A DNA stretch of 64,000 nucleotides from Brachymonas denitrificans. GTDB lineage: Bacteria; Pseudomonadota; Gammaproteobacteria; Burkholderiales; Burkholderiaceae_C. The DNA lies in NCBI RefSeq assembly GCF_907163135.1, contig NZ_CAJQUA010000001.1:1751001-1815000 (forward strand), read 5' to 3'. Below, piece after piece: positions 6,757 to 41,945 of this stretch (position 1 is its first letter; every line of letters starts with the position of its first letter). The notes under the pieces were generated by a model. That model was not told where the DNA came from and did no database searches. It was given only the letters and a program-made list of their open reading frames with translations. The translations under genes were made by a program, and so were the position numbers.

Positions 6757-7388
6757 GCGTCGGTGCCTTCCGCGGTCGTGGCACGCGCCAGCACGGCCTC
6801 GCGCAGCATGGGCAGGCCCTCCACGCCCCAGAACACCTCCGGAGTGCCGCCCTCCTCTTCCGGCAGCAGCACGCAGGTGGGCACGCCGAAAACGCCGTGC
6901 GCAATGGCCGCCTCGCCAATGGCGAACAATTCCTGCTTCACTTCCGAGTCAGCCGGATCCCGCACGGCCGGCAGGTCTCGCACCAACTCCTGCCACACTG
7001 CTTCGCGCAGGGCCGGATCATCGGCATCACGGCCGCCCTGCCAGATCGCATCGAACAGCGTTTCGCACACATGGCGGCCGGGCTGCCCCTGCGGGCTGGC
7101 GGCCAGCGCCATGCGCAACCAGGGGATGGACGAAAACGGATGGCTCGCCGGCAGGGCAAACTCCAGTCCCTGTTCGCGCGCCAGCCAGCCGGCATGGCGA
7201 AACAGCCATTCGCGCTTGGGCGGCAGGCTCACCGGAACGGGCGTGCCATGCGCTTTCAGCAGCGCTCCCAGCACCAGCGGCCGATACACCATCTGGTAGG
7301 GCAGACCAAACAGCGTGCGCGGCAAGGCATGGAAGGCCACATAGGCGTAGGGCGAGACGAAATCGAAATAAAAGTGGATGACAGGCAT
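6753..7388 (-). CDS. DsbA-fold 2-hydroxychromene-2-carboxylate isomerase family protein
   Basis: A 211-aa protein starting [20 protein letters not shown], the kappa-GST/DsbA-like thioredoxin fold beginning with the conserved FYFDFxSPYAY and the central serine-proline. It also has the [10 protein letters not shown] loop (cis-Pro region), typical of glutathione-dependent HCCA isomerases acting in naphthalene-type aromatic degradation. Many bacterial homologues sit outside aromatic pathways, as here (with dtd and a DUF1289 gene), so the physiological substrate is open. There is no CXXC, so it is not a disulfide oxidoreductase. Confidence 0.85.
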
Positions 7389-7402
7389 GGCGGCAGAACT
7401 CC

Positions 7403-7657
7403 TCAGCGTGGCACGGCGGCCTGGCTGCGCGCCATCAGCGCCTGCCAGATCGCTTTCTTCTCGTCCTCGTCCAGCACCGACCAGTGGGCGATTTCATCCA
7501 GCGTGCGCCAGCACCCGCGGCACTGGCCGCTGGCCGGATCGATCTGGCAGACGTTGATGCAGGGGGACGGGACTTGCGGCATGGCGAGCGCACAGGCGAT
7601 GCGCTCCGCGAGCTTGCGGCTTTCTGCCGCCCGGTTGGATACGGAGGAACTGGGCAT
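7403..7657 (-). CDS. DUF1289 small cysteine-rich protein
   Basis: An 84-aa protein with the DUF1289 core PSPCINVCQIDPASGQCRGC followed by WRTLDEIAHW. Four cysteines in a C-x3-C-x8-C-x2-C pattern suggest a bound metal or Fe-S cluster. The function of the family is unknown. It lies 14 nt upstream of the isomerase gene on the same strand, so DUF1289-isomerase-dtd is probably one operon. An internal start at MPQVPSPC would remove about 25 poorly conserved residues. Confidence 0.85.
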   Translation of the reverse strand: MPSSSVSNRAAESRKLAERIACALAMPQVPSPCINVCQIDPASGQCRGCWRTLDEIAHWSVLDEDEKKAIWQALMARSQAAVPR

Positions 7658-7673
7658 GGACGCATTATCCAGG

Positions 7674-7699
7674 CAAAAGAAAGGGCCACCCCGTGGCCC
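7674..7699 (-). terminator. Intrinsic terminator after liuE
   Basis: The stem GGGCCAC/GTGGCCC with a 3-nt loop is followed on the minus strand by TTTCTTTTGCC. It ends the acyl-CoA ligase-liuB-liuC-liuD-liuE transcript and separates it from the DUF1289 operon. Confidence 0.75.
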
Positions 7700-7720
7700 C
7701 CGGAAAGCTCCCGTACCCGC

Positions 7721-8647
7721 TCAGGCGCAAGCGGCCGACGCGCGCTTGGTCAGCAGCGCGCGCGCCACGCGCGAGCCGGACGGACGGCCCAGGAAGTCGC
7801 TGATCATCTGGCCGGCGTCAATCAGCTTGTCCAGGTCGATGCCGGTATCGATACCCATGCCGTGCAGCATGTAGACCACGTCCTCGGTCGCCACGTTGCC
7901 CGTGGCGCCCTTGGCGTAGGGGCAGCCGCCCAGGCCGGCCACAGATGTTTCATGCTGCCACACGCCCATCTGCACCGCAGCCAGCGTATTGGCCAGTGCC
8001 TGGCCGTAGGTGTCGTGGAAGTGGCCGCTGATCTGGTCCACGCTGAAGTGCTTGAGCGTAGCCTCGATGGCACGCTGCACCTTGAGCGGGGTGCCGACGC
8101 CGATGGTGTCGGCCACGGCCACCTGCTGCACGCCGATGTTCTTCAGCAGGCCGGCCAGGTATTCCACGCGCTCGGGCGCAATCTCGCCCTCGTAGGGGCA
8201 GCCCACGGTGCAGCTCATGGCGGCACGCACTTTCATGCCCGCCGCCAGCGCGGCCTCGACCACCGGAGCGAAACGCTCGATGCTCTCGGCGATGGAGCAG
8301 TTGATGTTCTTCTGGCTGAAGGCCTCGCTGGCCGCACCGAACACGGTCACTTCATCCGGCCGGGTCAGCACGGCTGCCTCATAGCCCTTCATGTTCGGCA
8401 CCAGCACCGAGTAGACCACGCCCGGCTTGCGCTGGATCGCGTTCATCACCTCGGTGTTGTCGCCCATCTGCGGTACCCACTTGGGGCTGACGAAGCTGGT
8501 GGTTTCCAGCTTGGTCACGCCGGCATCCACCAGGCGATGGATCAGGTCCACCTTGATGTCGGTCGGCACGGTCTGCTTTTCGTTCTGCAGGCCGTCGCGC
8601 GGACCGAGTTCGATGATCTGGGCCTTGGTCGGCAGGGACATGCTCAT
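7721..8647 (-). CDS. liuE: Hydroxymethylglutaryl-CoA lyase
   Basis: Cleaves 3-hydroxy-3-methylglutaryl-CoA to acetoacetate and acetyl-CoA, the last step specific to leucine degradation. The 308-aa protein is a DRE-TIM-like barrel with the N-terminal ELGPRDGLQNE metal-site motif, SGHFHDTYGQ (metal-binding histidines) and the family signature GLGGCPYAKGATGNVATEDV with the catalytic cysteine. Start 8647 has AAGGAG 7 nt upstream. It lies 12 nt downstream of liuD and is the last gene of the operon. Confidence 0.97.
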   Translation of the reverse strand: MSMSLPTKAQIIELGPRDGLQNEKQTVPTDIKVDLIHRLVDAGVTKLETTSFVSPKWVPQMGDNTEVMNAIQRKPGVVYSVLVPNMKGYEAAVLTRPDEVTVFGAASEAFSQKNINCSIAESIERFAPVVEAALAAGMKVRAAMSCTVGCPYEGEIAPERVEYLAGLLKNIGVQQVAVADTIGVGTPLKVQRAIEATLKHFSVDQISGHFHDTYGQALANTLAAVQMGVWQHETSVAGLGGCPYAKGATGNVATEDVVYMLHGMGIDTGIDLDKLIDAGQMISDFLGRPSGSRVARALLTKRASAACA

Positions 8648-36667: not shown

Positions 36668-37786
36668 ATGACTACTTCCGCCTTTGCACCGCTGTCCAAC
36701 GACACCTTCCTGCGCGCCTGCCGCGGCCTTGCAACCGATTACACCCCGCTGTGGCTGATGCGCCAGGCCGGACGGTATCTGCCCGAATACCGCGAAACAC
36801 GCGCCAAGGCAGGCAGTTTCATGGGCCTGGCTACCAATGTGGATTACGCCACGGAAGTGACGCTGCAGCCGCTGGAGCGCTTTCCGCTCGACGCCGCCAT
36901 CCTGTTCAGCGACATCCTGACGGTGCCCGACGCCATGGGCCTGGGCCTGAGCTTCCAGCTGGGCGAAGGCCCGAAGTTCGAGCGCAATGTGCGCGACGAG
37001 GCTGCCGTGAATGCGCTGTCTGTGCCGGACATGGACAAGCTGCGCTATGTCTTTGATGCGGTGACCAGCATCCGCAAGGCGCTGAATGGCCGCGTGCCGC
37101 TGATCGGCTTCAGCGGCAGCCCCTGGACGCTGGCCTGCTATATGGTGGAAGGCGGCGGCAGCGATGACTACCGCGCCGTGAAGACGCTGATGTACAGCCG
37201 CCCCGATCTGATGCACCGCATCCTCTCGGTGAACGCCGACAGCGTGGCTGCCTACCTGAATGCCCAGATCGACGCCGGGGCGCAGGCCGTGATGGTGTTC
37301 GACAGCTGGGGCGGCGTGCTGGCCGATGGCGCCTTCCAGGCCTTCAGCCTGGCCTATACGCAGCGCGTGCTGGGTCAGCTCAAGCGCACCGGCCCGGACG
37401 GGCAGGACGTGCCGCGCATCGTGTTCACCAAGGGTGGCGGCCTGTGGCTGTCGCAAATGCAATCGCTGGATTGCGACGTGCTGGGCGTGGACTGGACCGT
37501 GAACCTGGGCGCCGCGCGCGAACTGCTCTGGAAGGATGGCAAGGGCAAGGGCCTGCAGGGCAACCTGGATCCCAATGTGCTGTTTGCGCCGCCCGAAGCG
37601 GTGCAGGCCGAGGCACGCAAGGTGCTGGACAGCTTCGGCAAGCCCCACCAGGGCGAAGGCCGCGGACCGACGCACATCTTCAACCTGGGCCATGGCATCA
37701 GCCAGTTCACGCCGCCGGAGCATGTTGCCGCGCTGGTAGAGACGGTGCACGGCCACTCCCGTGCCATGCGGCAGACCGCTATCTGA
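36668..37786 (+). CDS. hemE: Uroporphyrinogen decarboxylase
   Basis: Removes four carboxyl groups from uroporphyrinogen III in haem synthesis. The 372-aa enzyme has the N-terminal signature [19 protein letters not shown] (Arg/Gly loop that binds substrate) and the second signature [20 protein letters not shown]. The catalytic Asp is in [13 protein letters not shown]. The ATG at 36668 begins [20 protein letters not shown]; there is no SD. A hairpin follows the stop, then a 1.1-kb non-coding repeat region before alkB/priA. Confidence 0.97.
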
Positions 37787-37809
37787 TCCGGCTACCTGCC
37801 ACACCCGCT

Positions 37810-37843
37810 ACAGCCCCTTCCGGTTCCTGCCGGCAGGGGCTGT
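37810..37843 (+). terminator. Hairpin after hemE, probable terminator
   Basis: Nine-base arms ACAGCCCCT/AGGGGCTGT enclose a second small stem (CCGG...CCGG); the downstream sequence CTGCTTT is only weakly T-rich. Confidence 0.5.
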
Positions 37844-37910
37844 CTGCTTTGGTGTGCATGTACGGCCCGTGTTCCGCGCTACGGCTTGGCGGCCTCCCTT
37901 ATACCGGGTT

Positions 37911-38160
37911 TTCGGGCCGTTCCACGCGGACTTGTACACATTTTTTTGCGGGCGGGAGGCAGCCCCGGCACTCCCTACCCGACTGTATGTCCGGGTTATG
38001 CAAGCGCACTCCATCCCCTTGATTTTATTCATGAATTCATAACCCGGCGATTTTTCCAAACAAGCTGCAAGCGCTTGATTTATCAAGGATAAGCCGGGTT
38101 GCGCACGGACTATGCACAAAGTTATCCACAGATTGCTGCACAACCCCGATATTCCCTGTG
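37911..38160 (+). repeat. Repeat unit 1 of the hemE-priA intergenic region
   Basis: Order of landmarks: TTCGGGCC at 37911, CTTGTACACA at 37931, TTGATTTT at 38019 inside the CCGGGTTATG/CATAACCCGG hairpin, and CACAAAGTTATCCACAG at 38115. The 20-nt, 88-nt and 103-nt landmark distances are almost exactly those of unit 2. Confidence 0.75.
38122..38130 (+). promoter_or_regulatory. DnaA box, perfect consensus (unit 1)
   Basis: TTATCCACA, within CACAAAGTTATCCACAG, 103 nt after the TTGATTTT block. Confidence 0.8.
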
Positions 38161-38271
38161 GTGACAAGTGCTTAGCGCCGGATGATGGTGGGAAGCTTCA
38201 GCAATCGCCCGGATCTTGCCCTTGACAGACCGGGAATTGGAAGGTCCGGAAACCCCTGAAATCTGGGGCTG

Positions 38272-38518
38272 TTCGGGCCCCTCACTGTTTACTTGTACAC
38301 ACCTTGCGTGGCAGTGCCCATGTTCCATCGGCAATTTTCAGGCCGCCCTGCAGAGTGCGGAAATCTTTCGCTAAACCGTTGATTTTGTTTGAATTCACGA
38401 AAATGCCTTATTTATGGGCAAGCTGTTGGAAGCCTTGCCCATCAAGGCTTTGGCGCATCCGTCCCAAAGCCATCCACAAAGTTATCCACAGTTCGTGTGG
38501 GCAGGAGATCATCCCCGC
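38272..38518 (+). repeat. Repeat unit 2 of the hemE-priA intergenic region
   Basis: Landmarks: TTCGGGCC at 38272, CTTGTACACA at 38292, TTGATTTT at 38379, CACAAAGTTATCCACAG at 38475, then TGTGGG 4 nt after the box and ATCCCCGC 9 nt later. It is 360 nt downstream of unit 1. Confidence 0.75.
38482..38490 (+). promoter_or_regulatory. DnaA box, perfect consensus (unit 2)
   Basis: TTATCCACA, followed by G-TTCG-TGTGG so that CCACA/TGTGG can pair across a short loop. Confidence 0.8.
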
Positions 38519-38771
38519 CAAAAGCCTTGTTTCATGCGGTTTCCAACAGGGCCCCCGCTGGAACCCGCATGCACGCTGGCTTGCAGCGCGGACCGGGCTG
38601 TAGGCCTTGTCTGACAAGGCTTGCAGCGGATGACTGGATGGAAAGACAGGGTTTTTTGCGGCCAAAACCGCAAATGTCACGCAACAGACATGCAGTTGTC
38701 CCCAGTCAGGCAACTGCAAACCAGGCAGGCGGGCGCAAGCGCACGGGTTGCCTGGCGCATTCCGTAAGTAC

Positions 38772-38910
38772 TTGATTTTTAAAAGAACATCGGAAATGCC
38801 CGTTTTTCCGGCAGCCTGTACAAAGCCTTGCCCCACGCGGGTTTAGCGCACCCGTCCCAAAGTCGCCCACAAAGTTGTCCACAGACGCTGTGGGAATGTG
38901 GAAATCCCCG
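38772..38910 (+). repeat. Repeat unit 3 (3' part) of the hemE-priA intergenic region
   Basis: TTGATTTT at 38772, CCCGTCCCAAAG (also in unit 2), CACAAAGTTGTCCACAG ending at 38884, TGTGGG 4 nt later and ATCCCCGC 9 nt after that, spacings identical to unit 2. The 5' part with CTTGTACACA is not recognisable here. It is 393 nt after unit 2. Confidence 0.7.
38875..38883 (+). promoter_or_regulatory. DnaA-box-like sequence (unit 3)
   Basis: TTGTCCACA, one mismatch to TTATCCACA, at the position homologous to the perfect boxes. Confidence 0.6.
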
Positions 38911-39537
38911 CTAGCCTTGCCGGCGCACGCGGAAGGCGCAGCTGATGCGGGGACCCACGCTGTCGCGCGTCTTGGGAATGCCGTGCTCGTGCGTGATCTG
39001 CGACGCATGGCTCATGGCCAGCACGCTGCCCGGCTCGAGGCAGACTCTTAGCGGACGATGGCTGCCGTCCTTGGCGCGCAGCAGCATGTCACGCGCATGC
39101 CCGAGCGAAACCAGCACGATGGGCTGGCCGGGGGCCAGGTTGTGCAGGCGATCGTTGTGCATGGCCACGCTATCCTGTCCATTGCGGTAGAGGTTGAAAC
39201 CGACGTGGGTAAATGGCGCCGGAACCAGCTCCTGCGCCAGTTGCAGCGCGCCCAGTACGGCGGGAATGACACAGGCTTCGGCCACAGGCAGGCTGGCGTG
39301 CAGGCGAGGCACGTCCAGCATGCGCTCGTACATCTGGCGCCGTTCTTGCTGCCAGGGCACCGCTTCGAGCAATTGCCGGAACCAGGCCTGCTGCTGCTCC
39401 GCCGAAAGGCGCGGCGGCCAGTAGCGCATGCCCTCTTCCGCACCGGGAATCAGCGTCAGCGGCTCGGCAGCGAACAGGCTGCCCTGGACAAGCCCGCACG
39501 AGGAGGATGGCGAGGAAACAAGGGAGAAGCGCTGCAT
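38911..39537 (-). CDS. AlkB-family 2-oxoglutarate/Fe(II) dioxygenase
   Basis: The 208-aa protein would repair alkylated DNA/RNA bases by oxidative demethylation. It has the double-stranded beta-helix pattern FNLYRNGQDSVAMHNDRLHN (HxD iron ligands), PIVLVSLGHARDMLLR, a distal His in SHASQITHEHGIPKT, and the C-terminal RISCAFRVRRQG arginines that bind 2-oxoglutarate. It is close to plant/bacterial ALKBH2-3-like proteins rather than E. coli AlkB in length. Start 39537 is chosen because the conserved region follows. A near-consensus LexA box lies 55 nt upstream. Confidence 0.88.
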   Translation of the reverse strand: MQRFSLVSSPSSSCGLVQGSLFAAEPLTLIPGAEEGMRYWPPRLSAEQQQAWFRQLLEAVPWQQERRQMYERMLDVPRLHASLPVAEACVIPAVLGALQLAQELVPAPFTHVGFNLYRNGQDSVAMHNDRLHNLAPGQPIVLVSLGHARDMLLRAKDGSHRPLRVCLEPGSVLAMSHASQITHEHGIPKTRDSVGPRISCAFRVRRQG

Positions 39538-39591
39538 GGGACTACCTGTCAACGGCCCGGGCTTTTGGAGACAGCTGGCAAAGGCCTTAAA

Positions 39592-39611
39592 TACTGTATT
39601 TACATACAGTA
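39592..39611 (-). promoter_or_regulatory. LexA (SOS) box upstream of the AlkB-family gene
   Basis: TACTGTATTTACATACAGTA: CTGT-N8-ACAG core intact, two mismatches to the E. coli 20-nt consensus, perfect outer arms TACTGTAT/ATACAGTA. It sits 55 nt before the alkB-like start and about 200 nt before priA. Confidence 0.85.
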
Positions 39612-39732
39612 TATTTCCGTTCCCGATGCTCCGCAATCCCCTGCCACGGCAAGCTGCCCCTTTTTCACGCAGCGTCTTGAAGGCCACGGCTGGCGCGGCT
39701 TTCGACAGTTGTCCCTGCGCAGGCCCACATAC

Positions 39733-39741
39733 TTGTCCACA
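39733..39741 (+). promoter_or_regulatory. DnaA-box-like sequence just upstream of priA (fourth repeat remnant)
   Basis: GCCCACATACTTGTCCACAG followed by GATG and TGTGGG. This is the same box-4nt-TGTGGG arrangement as units 2 and 3, 69 nt before the priA start. Confidence 0.6.
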
Positions 39742-39809
39742 GGATGTGTGGGTAGTTCGACACATTGGCCGCTGCGGAGCGGCGGCGCCGAACGGTTACA
39801 GTGCTGGCT

Positions 39810-41945
39810 ATGGATTCTGCCCACCCTGCCGAGACGGCGCCTGCCCTGCCAGGCGGCAGCCTGCATGTGCTTCCGGTACTCGTCGCCTTGCCCGCGCACA
39901 GCCCGCTGTCGGCCACTCCCCTGCATTACACGCATAGCGAGCCGCTGCCTGCGGGAACGCTGGTGCGGGTGCCGCTGGGCGCGCGCGCCGTGCTGGGCGT
40001 GGTGTGGGACGATGTGCCGCTGCCGCAGCAGGAAGGGCTGCAACTGCGGCCGCTGCTGGAGGCGTTCGCCGCCCTGCCCCCGCTGGATACCGGCTGGCGC
40101 CGGCTGGTCGGCTTCACGGCGCACTATTACCAGCGCAGCATGGGCGAAGTGGCCCTGTCGGCGCTGCCGCCGCAACTGCGCGATCTGGATGGCACGCAAC
40201 TGGCGCGCCGGCTCCGGAAGCTGGCTGCCGGCAAGGCCGCAGAAGCCGGCGCGGCAAGCAGCGCGCTGCCGCTGACGGAACAGCAACACGCCGCCCTGGA
40301 AACCCTGCTCAAGCCTTTCCCATCCGGCAAGGCCCCCCGCCCCTGCCTGCTGTTCGGCAGCACCGGCAGCGGCAAGACGGAGGTCTACCTGCAGGCCGTT
40401 GCCCGCACACTGGAGCAGGATCCTGCCGCCCAGGTGCTGGTGATGGTGCCCGAGATCAATCTCACGCCGCAACTCGAGCAGCGCTTTGCCGACCGCTTTC
40501 CGGCCGAGCGCATCGCTGCCATGCACAGCGGCCTGACGCCGGCGCAACGCCTGCAGGGCTGGCTGGCGGCGCATACCGGTCAGGCGCGCATCGTGCTGGG
40601 CACACGCATGGCGGTACTGGCCTCGCTGCCGGGCCTGCGCCTGATCGTGGTGGACGAGGAACACGATCCCAGCTACAAGCAGCAGGAAGGCGCGCGCTAT
40701 TCGGCGCGGGATCTGGCGATCTACCGCGCCCACCATGCGCAGGCGCGCATCCTGCTGGGATCGGCCACGCCCTCGCTGGAGAGCTGGCACCAGAGCCGCC
40801 CGCCCGGCGATGGCGATGCCGGGGGGCGCTACCTGCGCCTGGCCATGCCGGCGCGCATCGGTGCTGCGCCGCTGCCGCGCGTGCGCCTGATCGACATGAA
40901 CCACCAGCCGCGCCGCTGTGTGTTCAGCCCGCAATTGCTGGAGGCCATGGCCGGGCGCGCCGCCCGCGGCGAGCAAAGCATGGTGCTGCTGAACCGCCGC
41001 GGCTACGCCCCGGTGCTGCACTGCGCCGATTGCGGCTGGAAGAGCGAGTGCCCGCACTGCAGCGCCTACCGCGTGTTCCACAAGATCGACCGCACGCTGC
41101 GCTGCCACCACTGCGGTTTTACCGAGCGCGTGCCGCGCGCCTGCCCTTCCTGCGGCAATCTGGATGTGCAGACGCTGGGCCAGGGCACGGAACAGCTGGA
41201 GGAAGCCCTGGCGGCCGAGCTCCGTTCCCTGGCCCGGCCGGATGGCAGCCCGCTCGTGATCGCGCGCATCGACGCCGACACCACGCGCCATGCGGGCAGC
41301 CTGGAGCAGCAGCTGGCGCGCGTGCACAGCGGCGATGTGGACGTGCTGGTGGGCACGCAGATGATTGCCAAGGGGCATGATTTCCGCCGCATCACGCTGG
41401 TGGCGGCACTCAACCCGGACACCGCCCTGTTCAGCAGCGACTTCCGGGCGCCGGAGCGGCTGTTCAGCCTGCTGCTGCAGGCCGGGGGGCGCGCCGGGCG
41501 CGATGCCGCCATCGGCAGCACCAGCGAGCTGTGGGTGCAGACGCGCTTTCCCGCCCATGCACTGTTTGGCGCGCTGCAACGGCACGACTACCCGGCCTTT
41601 GCCGCACAGCAGCTGGAAGAGCGCGCTGCCGCCGGCATGCCGCCCTTCAGCTACCAGGCGCTGGTACGCGCCGAAAGCCGCGAACAGCAGGCGGCGCAGG
41701 ACTTTCTCAATGCGGCCGGTGCCGCCGCGGCGGATCTGCCCGAAGCGGCCGAAGTGTTCTGCTACCCCGCCATCCCGATGACGCCCCAGCGCGTGGCCAA
41801 TCGGGAGCGTGCGCAGATGCTGCTGGAAAGCGGCAATCGCACGGCCCTGCAGCGCTTCCTGCCGCAGCTGGCACACCAACTGCATGCCGGGCGTACGCGC
41901 GCCATCCTGCGCTGGGCGATTGACGTGGATCCGCTGGGCATATGA
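39810..41945 (+). CDS. priA: Primosomal replication protein N', replication-restart helicase
   Basis: The 711-aa helicase that reloads the replisome at stalled forks. It has an N-terminal 3'-DNA-binding domain (about 20-110), Walker A LLFGSTGSGKTEVYL, Walker B VVDEEHDPSYKQQ and a zinc-binding cysteine cluster (LHCADCGWKSECPHC...RCHHCGF...CPSCGN). The C-terminal helicase lobe has VGTQMIAKGHDF and QAGGRAGRD. All are intact. Start MDSAHPAETA at 39810 is the shortest giving the full N-terminal domain. A DnaA-box-like repeat lies in its promoter region. Confidence 0.97.
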   Translation: MDSAHPAETAPALPGGSLHVLPVLVALPAHSPLSATPLHYTHSEPLPAGTLVRVPLGARAVLGVVWDDVPLPQQEGLQLRPLLEAFAALPPLDTGWRRLVGFTAHYYQRSMGEVALSALPPQLRDLDGTQLARRLRKLAAGKAAEAGAASSALPLTEQQHAALETLLKPFPSGKAPRPCLLFGSTGSGKTEVYLQAVARTLEQDPAAQVLVMVPEINLTPQLEQRFADRFPAERIAAMHSGLTPAQRLQGWLAAHTGQARIVLGTRMAVLASLPGLRLIVVDEEHDPSYKQQEGARYSARDLAIYRAHHAQARILLGSATPSLESWHQSRPPGDGDAGGRYLRLAMPARIGAAPLPRVRLIDMNHQPRRCVFSPQLLEAMAGRAARGEQSMVLLNRRGYAPVLHCADCGWKSECPHCSAYRVFHKIDRTLRCHHCGFTERVPRACPSCGNLDVQTLGQGTEQLEEALAAELRSLARPDGSPLVIARIDADTTRHAGSLEQQLARVHSGDVDVLVGTQMIAKGHDFRRITLVAALNPDTALFSSDFRAPERLFSLLLQAGGRAGRDAAIGSTSELWVQTRFPAHALFGALQRHDYPAFAAQQLEERAAAGMPPFSYQALVRAESREQQAAQDFLNAAGAAAADLPEAAEVFCYPAIPMTPQRVANRERAQMLLESGNRTALQRFLPQLAHQLHAGRTRAILRWAIDVDPLGI

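Follow-up and report, generated by a model that had tools for sequence, protein, structure and literature searches.

The window analysed here, a stretch of 64,000 nucleotides of Brachymonas denitrificans DNA, contains hemE (uroporphyrinogen decarboxylase, PF01208; 36638..37786, + strand) and priA (primosomal helicase; 39765..41945, + strand), the left and right anchors of the locus. A sequence-only reading of this DNA had placed three diverged repeat units between these two genes. The units are found there, but a gene resembling 2OG-Fe(II) oxygenases (window 38911-39540) intervenes before priA. This gene is also present in the nearest relative (genome G004, locus L014) and is absent from the hemE–priA gaps of two genomes of the same genus (G002 and G006).

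The distance from the word TTGATTTT (at 38019, 38379 and 38772) to the main DnaA box is 103 nt in all three units, as the reading had stated. This box is TTATCCACA at 38122 in unit 1 and at 38482 in unit 2, and TTGTCCACA at 38875 in unit 3; the description of the boxes as perfect therefore holds for units 1 and 2, the third box being one mismatch away from TTATCCACA. Two further landmarks were found as described: TTCGGGCC is followed by CTTGTACACA at 20 nt in units 1 and 2 (37911/37931 and 38272/38292), and TGTGGG lies 3' of the box in units 2 and 3, at a distance of 5 nt from the 9-mer, and is missing from unit 1. The word TTGATTTT overlaps the right half of the IHF consensus YAANNNNTTGATW, which is perfect in units 2 and 3 and carries one mismatch in unit 1, so that the 103 nt correspond to the distance between an IHF site and the main DnaA box. 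The reading missed both this and the DARS layout of the box cluster, in which box III is followed after 3 nt by box II (the main box) and, after 5 nt more, by a reversed box I. The control of the DnaA nucleotide cycle by DARS was worked out in E. coli, and the first DARS paper is reportedly that of Fujimitsu et al. 2009.

Each unit also includes an outer DnaA box, 179-190 nt 5' of the main box (at 37932, 38293 and, with one mismatch, 38696). All of the unit features are on the + strand, and their offsets are given relative to box II. Unit 1 begins with the outer box TTGTACACA (box A; 37932..37940, -190), at the place of the TTATGCACA box in relatives. It continues with an IHF-like site, CATCCCCTTGATT, one mismatch away from YAANNNNTTGATW (38012..38024, -110), and a perfect IHF consensus, CAAGCGCTTGATT (38068..38080, -54), a place used in 9 of 47 cores of relatives. 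The core of this unit (38110..38130) consists of box III CTATGCACA, 3 nt and box II TTATCCACA; there is no box at the position of box I (8 mismatches). A degenerate inverted second IHF-like site with two mismatches is present at +40 (38162..38174), a place likewise used in relatives.

Unit 2 has the outer box TTGTACACA (38293..38301, -189), the perfect IHF consensus TAAACCGTTGATT (38372..38384, -110) and the DARS-type core CCATCCACA.AAG.TTATCCACA.GTTCG.TGTGGGCAG (38470..38504), in which boxes III, II and reversed I carry 2, 0 and 3 mismatches. Unit 3 has a degenerate outer box, TTGTCCCCA (38696..38704, -179; the same in locus L014), the perfect IHF consensus TAAGTACTTGATT (38765..38777, -110) and the DARS-type core TCGCCCACA.AAG.TTGTCCACA.GACGC.TGTGGGAAT (38863..38897; 3, 1 and 3 mismatches). 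A fourth, degenerate core, AGGCCCACA.TAC.TTGTCCACA.GGATG.TGTGGGTAG (39721..39755, + strand; 4, 1 and 2 mismatches), is located 5' of priA. It has no IHF site at the fixed offset and is a weak match to the unit model described below.

In the 2.75-Mb genome there are 7 copies of the word TTATCCACA, two of them at hemE–priA, and 4 copies of a control pattern (the word read backwards). The number of boxes is in itself unremarkable: there are 7 in the window when one mismatch is tolerated, versus an expectation of 4.2, and at least as many were obtained in 12 of 100 shuffles. What stands out is how the boxes are clustered and spaced.

Conservation of the spacing in related genomes

The hemE loci of other genomes were collected by a protein search with HemE, and the best 80 of 578 loci were analysed; the top matches belong to Paracidovorax, Acidovorax, Comamonas and their kin, and they point to a source of the window in Burkholderiales, close to Comamonadaceae. 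The gene priA is downstream of hemE in 72 of these 80 loci. Within the 72 gaps, which come from related species and thus measure conservation rather than independent origins, there are 96 pairs of TTGAT and TTRTCCACA 85-130 nt apart, and in 81 of them the distance is 102-104 nt. Pairs of DnaA boxes 150-210 nt apart occur in 70 of the 80 loci and constitute 90 units, 72 of them with a distance of 185-189 nt.

Cores were defined by a main box with at most one mismatch and outer boxes (III and I) with at most three mismatches each. Such a core, with spacers of 3 and 5 nt, is present in 44 of the 72 hemE–priA gaps, and each of the other 98 spacer pairs in at most one. No core was found in 20 rounds of dinucleotide shuffling or in 360 kb of other B. 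denitrificans stretches (15 kb of which were masked), and the flanks of the 80 hemE loci, 722 kb in all, contain a single core. The IHF sites also keep fixed offsets. Around 47 cores, the perfect consensus occurs in the forward direction at -109 (26 cases), -110 (13) and -54 (9) and in the inverted direction at +40 (32), +41 (7) and +39 (1), and nowhere else between -250 and +150, as far as the slices reached. Counted per core, a forward site at -109 or -110 is present in 39 of 47 and an inverted site at +39 to +41 in 40 of 47.

The core is not universal: 28 of the 72 gaps have none at three or fewer mismatches per outer box, two short gaps of 84-94 nt (L066 and L073) have no box at all, and the seven hemE loci without a downstream priA have no core within the 4.9-6 kb covered. 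The gap of about 1.5 kb in Acidovorax sp. A1169 (L077) contains four box pairs, forming tandem units (approx. 7146-8383).

In an alignment of 58 of the 69 non-redundant units, the core is nearly invariant and is accompanied by an IHF half-site and an inverted IHF-like motif, while the sequence between them drifts; the marks of conservation are somewhat too high here because 11 units, some of them among the more divergent, were removed by hand. The counts of box pairs, spacers and IHF offsets do not depend on this alignment. The earlier suggestion that the spacing is selected while the interior has drifted is thus borne out, since the boxes and their distances are kept in relatives, with the exceptions of L066 and L073. 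In the close relatives, neither the gap nor the 103-nt spacing was found to be lost.

The stretch between the IHF site and the core contains some further patterns: a conserved TGC..T-run..GCA motif (alignment columns 41-57), an inverted repeat AAGCCTTGA..TCAAGGCTT and the second IHF match (-54).

The fixed spacing had been attributed to either a DNA–protein assembly or a structured element, and the former fits the data. The near-fixed length of the units and the inverted repeat, present in many of them, could be taken to indicate a non-coding RNA or another transcribed structured element. Folding of the 58 aligned units with RNAalifold gave just three base pairs, at -0.19 kcal/mol and with a covariation term of 0 (two of these pairs have one sequence each changed on both sides), and an Rfam search of 37500-40000 returned no match up to E 1. 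A conserved RNA fold was rejected for want of conserved, covarying base pairs, and a transcribed element of this kind seems scarcely credible.

A second locus at xseA and the wider range of the unit

A second core with an IHF site at -108 is present in B. denitrificans between xseA and lpxK (C1:1677342; position 7343 of L055). The search for further copies, which the sequence-only reading had advised, identified strict cores at hemE–priA and xseA only, in the 785 kb sampled of the 2.71-Mb chromosome. A search of 40 genomes of the family returned XseA from 38. Among 30 xseA loci fetched by protein, 21 have a core upstream of the gene, in every case with spacers of 3 and 5 nt (the other 79 spacer cells are empty), and nine lack a strict core. 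The best IHF match within -125 to -85 of these 21 cores is a perfect consensus at -108 in 13, and it is found there with at most one mismatch in 16. The gene lpxK lies inside the 1.5-kb flank in only 4 of the 30 loci and is present in 14 of the 16 xseA regions fetched by place.

The range of the unit was estimated with a model derived from sequence only, which consists of the IHF site and the core. At E <=0.01 matches to it were obtained in 115 of 120 genomes belonging to the order and in 109 of 150 sampled from the phylum; the E-values are rough, weak matches are counted as they stand, and since the model itself contains both elements its matches show range and give no independent proof of the spacing. 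Five listed members of one family (f81) are among the 41 phylum genomes that the model does not match. A 3/5 core is present in every one of the 18 best-scoring new loci from the phylum (L216-L233); in 13 of them an IHF site with no more than one mismatch lies at -109 to -112. Among the core sites of loci found with the model, a perfect IHF consensus at -108 to -112 accompanies 20 of 32 at hemE/priA, 8 of 24 at xseA and 9 of 32 at other sites.

Regions were also fetched by place in 20 genomes chosen by their model matches. In 14 of these, hemE/priA and xseA each supplied one region, with a strict core at both in 13; the other six genomes have at least one matched region with neither anchor. 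Members of family f69 (G193, G197 and others), outside the class, have up to nine unit-model matches per genome. In two distant genomes, cores overlap on opposite strands (L195, 3248 and 3270) and at least five cores are found within 1 kb, adjoining xseA (L197, 2558-3471).

These distributions bear on the idea that DnaA and IHF act here in the transcriptional control of priA or hemE, for which the vicinity of priA, a replication-restart gene, could be cited. The same layout recurs upstream of xseA, however, and in both B. denitrificans and G004 another gene separates the units from priA, which makes this explanation very unlikely.

Comparison with E. coli DARS1, DARS2 and datA

The layout of the unit core is identical to that of both E. 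coli DARS cores (strain MG1655). The DARS1 core, in what we take to be its place between bioD and uvrB, is TAATACACA.TGG.TTATCCACA.GGAAT.AGTGGATAA. The DARS2 core, placed by a published primer and located between rppH and mutH, is TTCTTCACA.ACT.CTATCCACA.GAAAA.GGTGAATAA. According to the portion of the review PMC5742627 that was available, equal spacing of the three boxes and an opposite box I are the common structure of DARS1 and DARS2, and head-to-head contact is a prominent feature. Units 2 and 3 have the equal spacing and, like the fourth core, a box I whose direction is opposite to that of boxes II and III; unit 1 has neither.

As in DARS2, an IHF site is present at a fixed distance from the core in the hemE–priA family (39 of 47 at -109/-110). 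The excerpt of PMC4245941 reports that DARS2 requires IHF at IBS1-2 and Fis at FBS2-3. E. coli DARS2 contains two IHF 13-mers with one mismatch each, 3 bp apart, and this pair fits IBS1-2 as presented in that excerpt, the assignment being ours. The IHF sites are on the box III side, as in the units, and the presumed IBS2 has the same orientation and starts at -99 from box II. The IHF site of the units is therefore 10-11 bp further out, or about one helical turn. The same source states that displacement of the IBS away from the DARS2 core is more harmful by 5 bp than by 10 bp, and that displacement towards the core is harmful at both distances.

The units differ from DARS2 in other respects. 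They are present in tandem copies, the relatives have two additional sites (an inverted IHF site at +40 and, at about -187, an outer DnaA box), and the neighbours are hemE–priA and xseA, whereas DARS2 lies between rppH and mutH; the latter neighbourhood characterises the locus in E. coli rather than the mechanism. The bioD–uvrB stretch scanned for DARS1, unlike the units, has no perfect or one-mismatch IHF consensus.

The outer parts of the units are also reminiscent of datA, in which, as described in the available text of PMC5742627, an IHF site lies between DnaA boxes of the same direction. The outer box, the IHF site and box II follow one another in this manner, and tandem copies would suit titration. 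The units might thus hold DnaA or promote ATP hydrolysis and so block re-initiation. The reversed box I at a fixed spacing of 5 nt is, however, shared by DARS1 and DARS2, and no three-box core with a reversed box I is present in the datA stretch scanned in E. coli. We consider a datA-like function unlikely.

DARS-like sequences in other proteobacteria are already known from reviews, as far as the excerpts of these go. The DARS2 core is reported as conserved among gamma-proteobacteria related to E. coli (PMC4245941, excerpt), the conservation of DARS is given as beta or gamma in PMC5742627 (excerpt), and DARS1/DARS2-like sequences are described as conserved across many proteobacterial species (PMC10380432, excerpt); the cross-species comparison of PMC8682772 covers, in the part available, seven species close to E. 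coli. No paper was recognised, by its title or the start of its abstract, as describing the hemE–priA or xseA loci, in a literature search with subscription papers mostly outside its scope.

Relation to the replication origin and possible role

DnaA boxes, IHF sites and T-rich stretches are also compatible with the hemE–priA locus being the chromosome origin or a second origin. In one genome assembled as a single contig (G042), about 31 kb separate the locus from mnmG, and the GC skew of B. denitrificans, although noisy, has a small positive value (+0.011) in the stretch containing the locus. The polarity of GGGNAGGG argues otherwise: it is 5 reverse versus 0 forward around the locus, and over 40 sampled stretches, where GC skew tracks it roughly and with noise, it switches near 0.9 Mb and near 2.2-2.4 Mb and not at the locus (1.79 Mb). 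In addition, the cumulative skew in the window peaks near the locus, which is the wrong way round, and a separate cluster of four boxes in approx. 370 bp upstream of mnmG (C1:2309024-2309396; L060 9025-9397) is a candidate oriC. With the origin placed near mnmG by the polarity of the sampled stretches, some 0.5 Mb from the locus, the latter is probably not oriC. This identity was rejected on the position of the polarity switch, the skew alone being noisy, and an origin or second origin here appears very improbable.

The gene dnaA (2.158 Mb) was dropped as an origin marker because the surrounding 20 kb in B. denitrificans have no TTRTNCACA box on either strand. A conserved distance to the origin was also rejected: in nine genomes with a hemE/priA match and mnmG on one contig, the two are separated by about 31 kb to 1.4 Mb; outside B. 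denitrificans, mnmG is no more than an assumed marker. In Cupriavidus metallidurans, clusters of DnaA boxes lie some 90 kb away from dnaA and also farther upstream, and they are treated as origin features in the available part of PMC2864759.

On the basis of its anatomy, the hemE–priA gap is probably a tandem array of DARS-type, DARS2-like elements. Several observations do not favour this interpretation. Unit 1 lacks a box I and matches the IHF consensus better at -54 than at -110, boxes III and I of units 2 and 3 carry two or three mismatches, the IHF site lies between two boxes of the same direction as in datA, and its offset differs by 10-11 bp from that of E. coli. The varying distance to mnmG and the gaps and xseA loci without a core also count against it. 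The genes for the partner proteins are present in B. denitrificans: that for Hda scores over the cut-off of TIGR03420 (and not of other Hda models), that for IHF alpha over the cut-offs of both models, and that for IHF beta over that of NF001222 and just under that of TIGR00988. Their presence makes RIDA and IHF-dependent control plausible.

From the arrangement of the sites we infer protein binding, bending, nucleotide exchange and an effect on initiation. A full unit would offer DnaA a strong binding site in box II and weak ones in boxes III and I, the last in a head-to-head manner, and IHF would bend the DNA at its site 110 bp away, so that the outer box meets the core. If the analogy with E. 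coli DARS2 holds, ADP-DnaA assembled there would lose its ADP, leave as apo-DnaA and reload ATP, and the level of ATP-DnaA would thereby be raised before the next initiation at oriC. Another element with this layout is present upstream of xseA.

More tentatively, and with rather less confidence than even chances would give, the combination of IHF site and core could be the ancestral DnaA-recharging device of the phylum, retained in Burkholderiales at two sites tied to priA and xseA, and multiplied there in tandem. E. coli DARS1 and DARS2 might then be relocated and altered descendants, DARS2 being one helical turn shorter and Fis-dependent.

The units may help to set the timing of chromosome replication in B. 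denitrificans. With a DARS-type site recognisable by its anatomy at two recurrent places in Burkholderiales, the recharging of ATP-DnaA becomes testable as a phylum-wide feature, and so does the need for the distance from the IHF site to the core to stay in helical phase.
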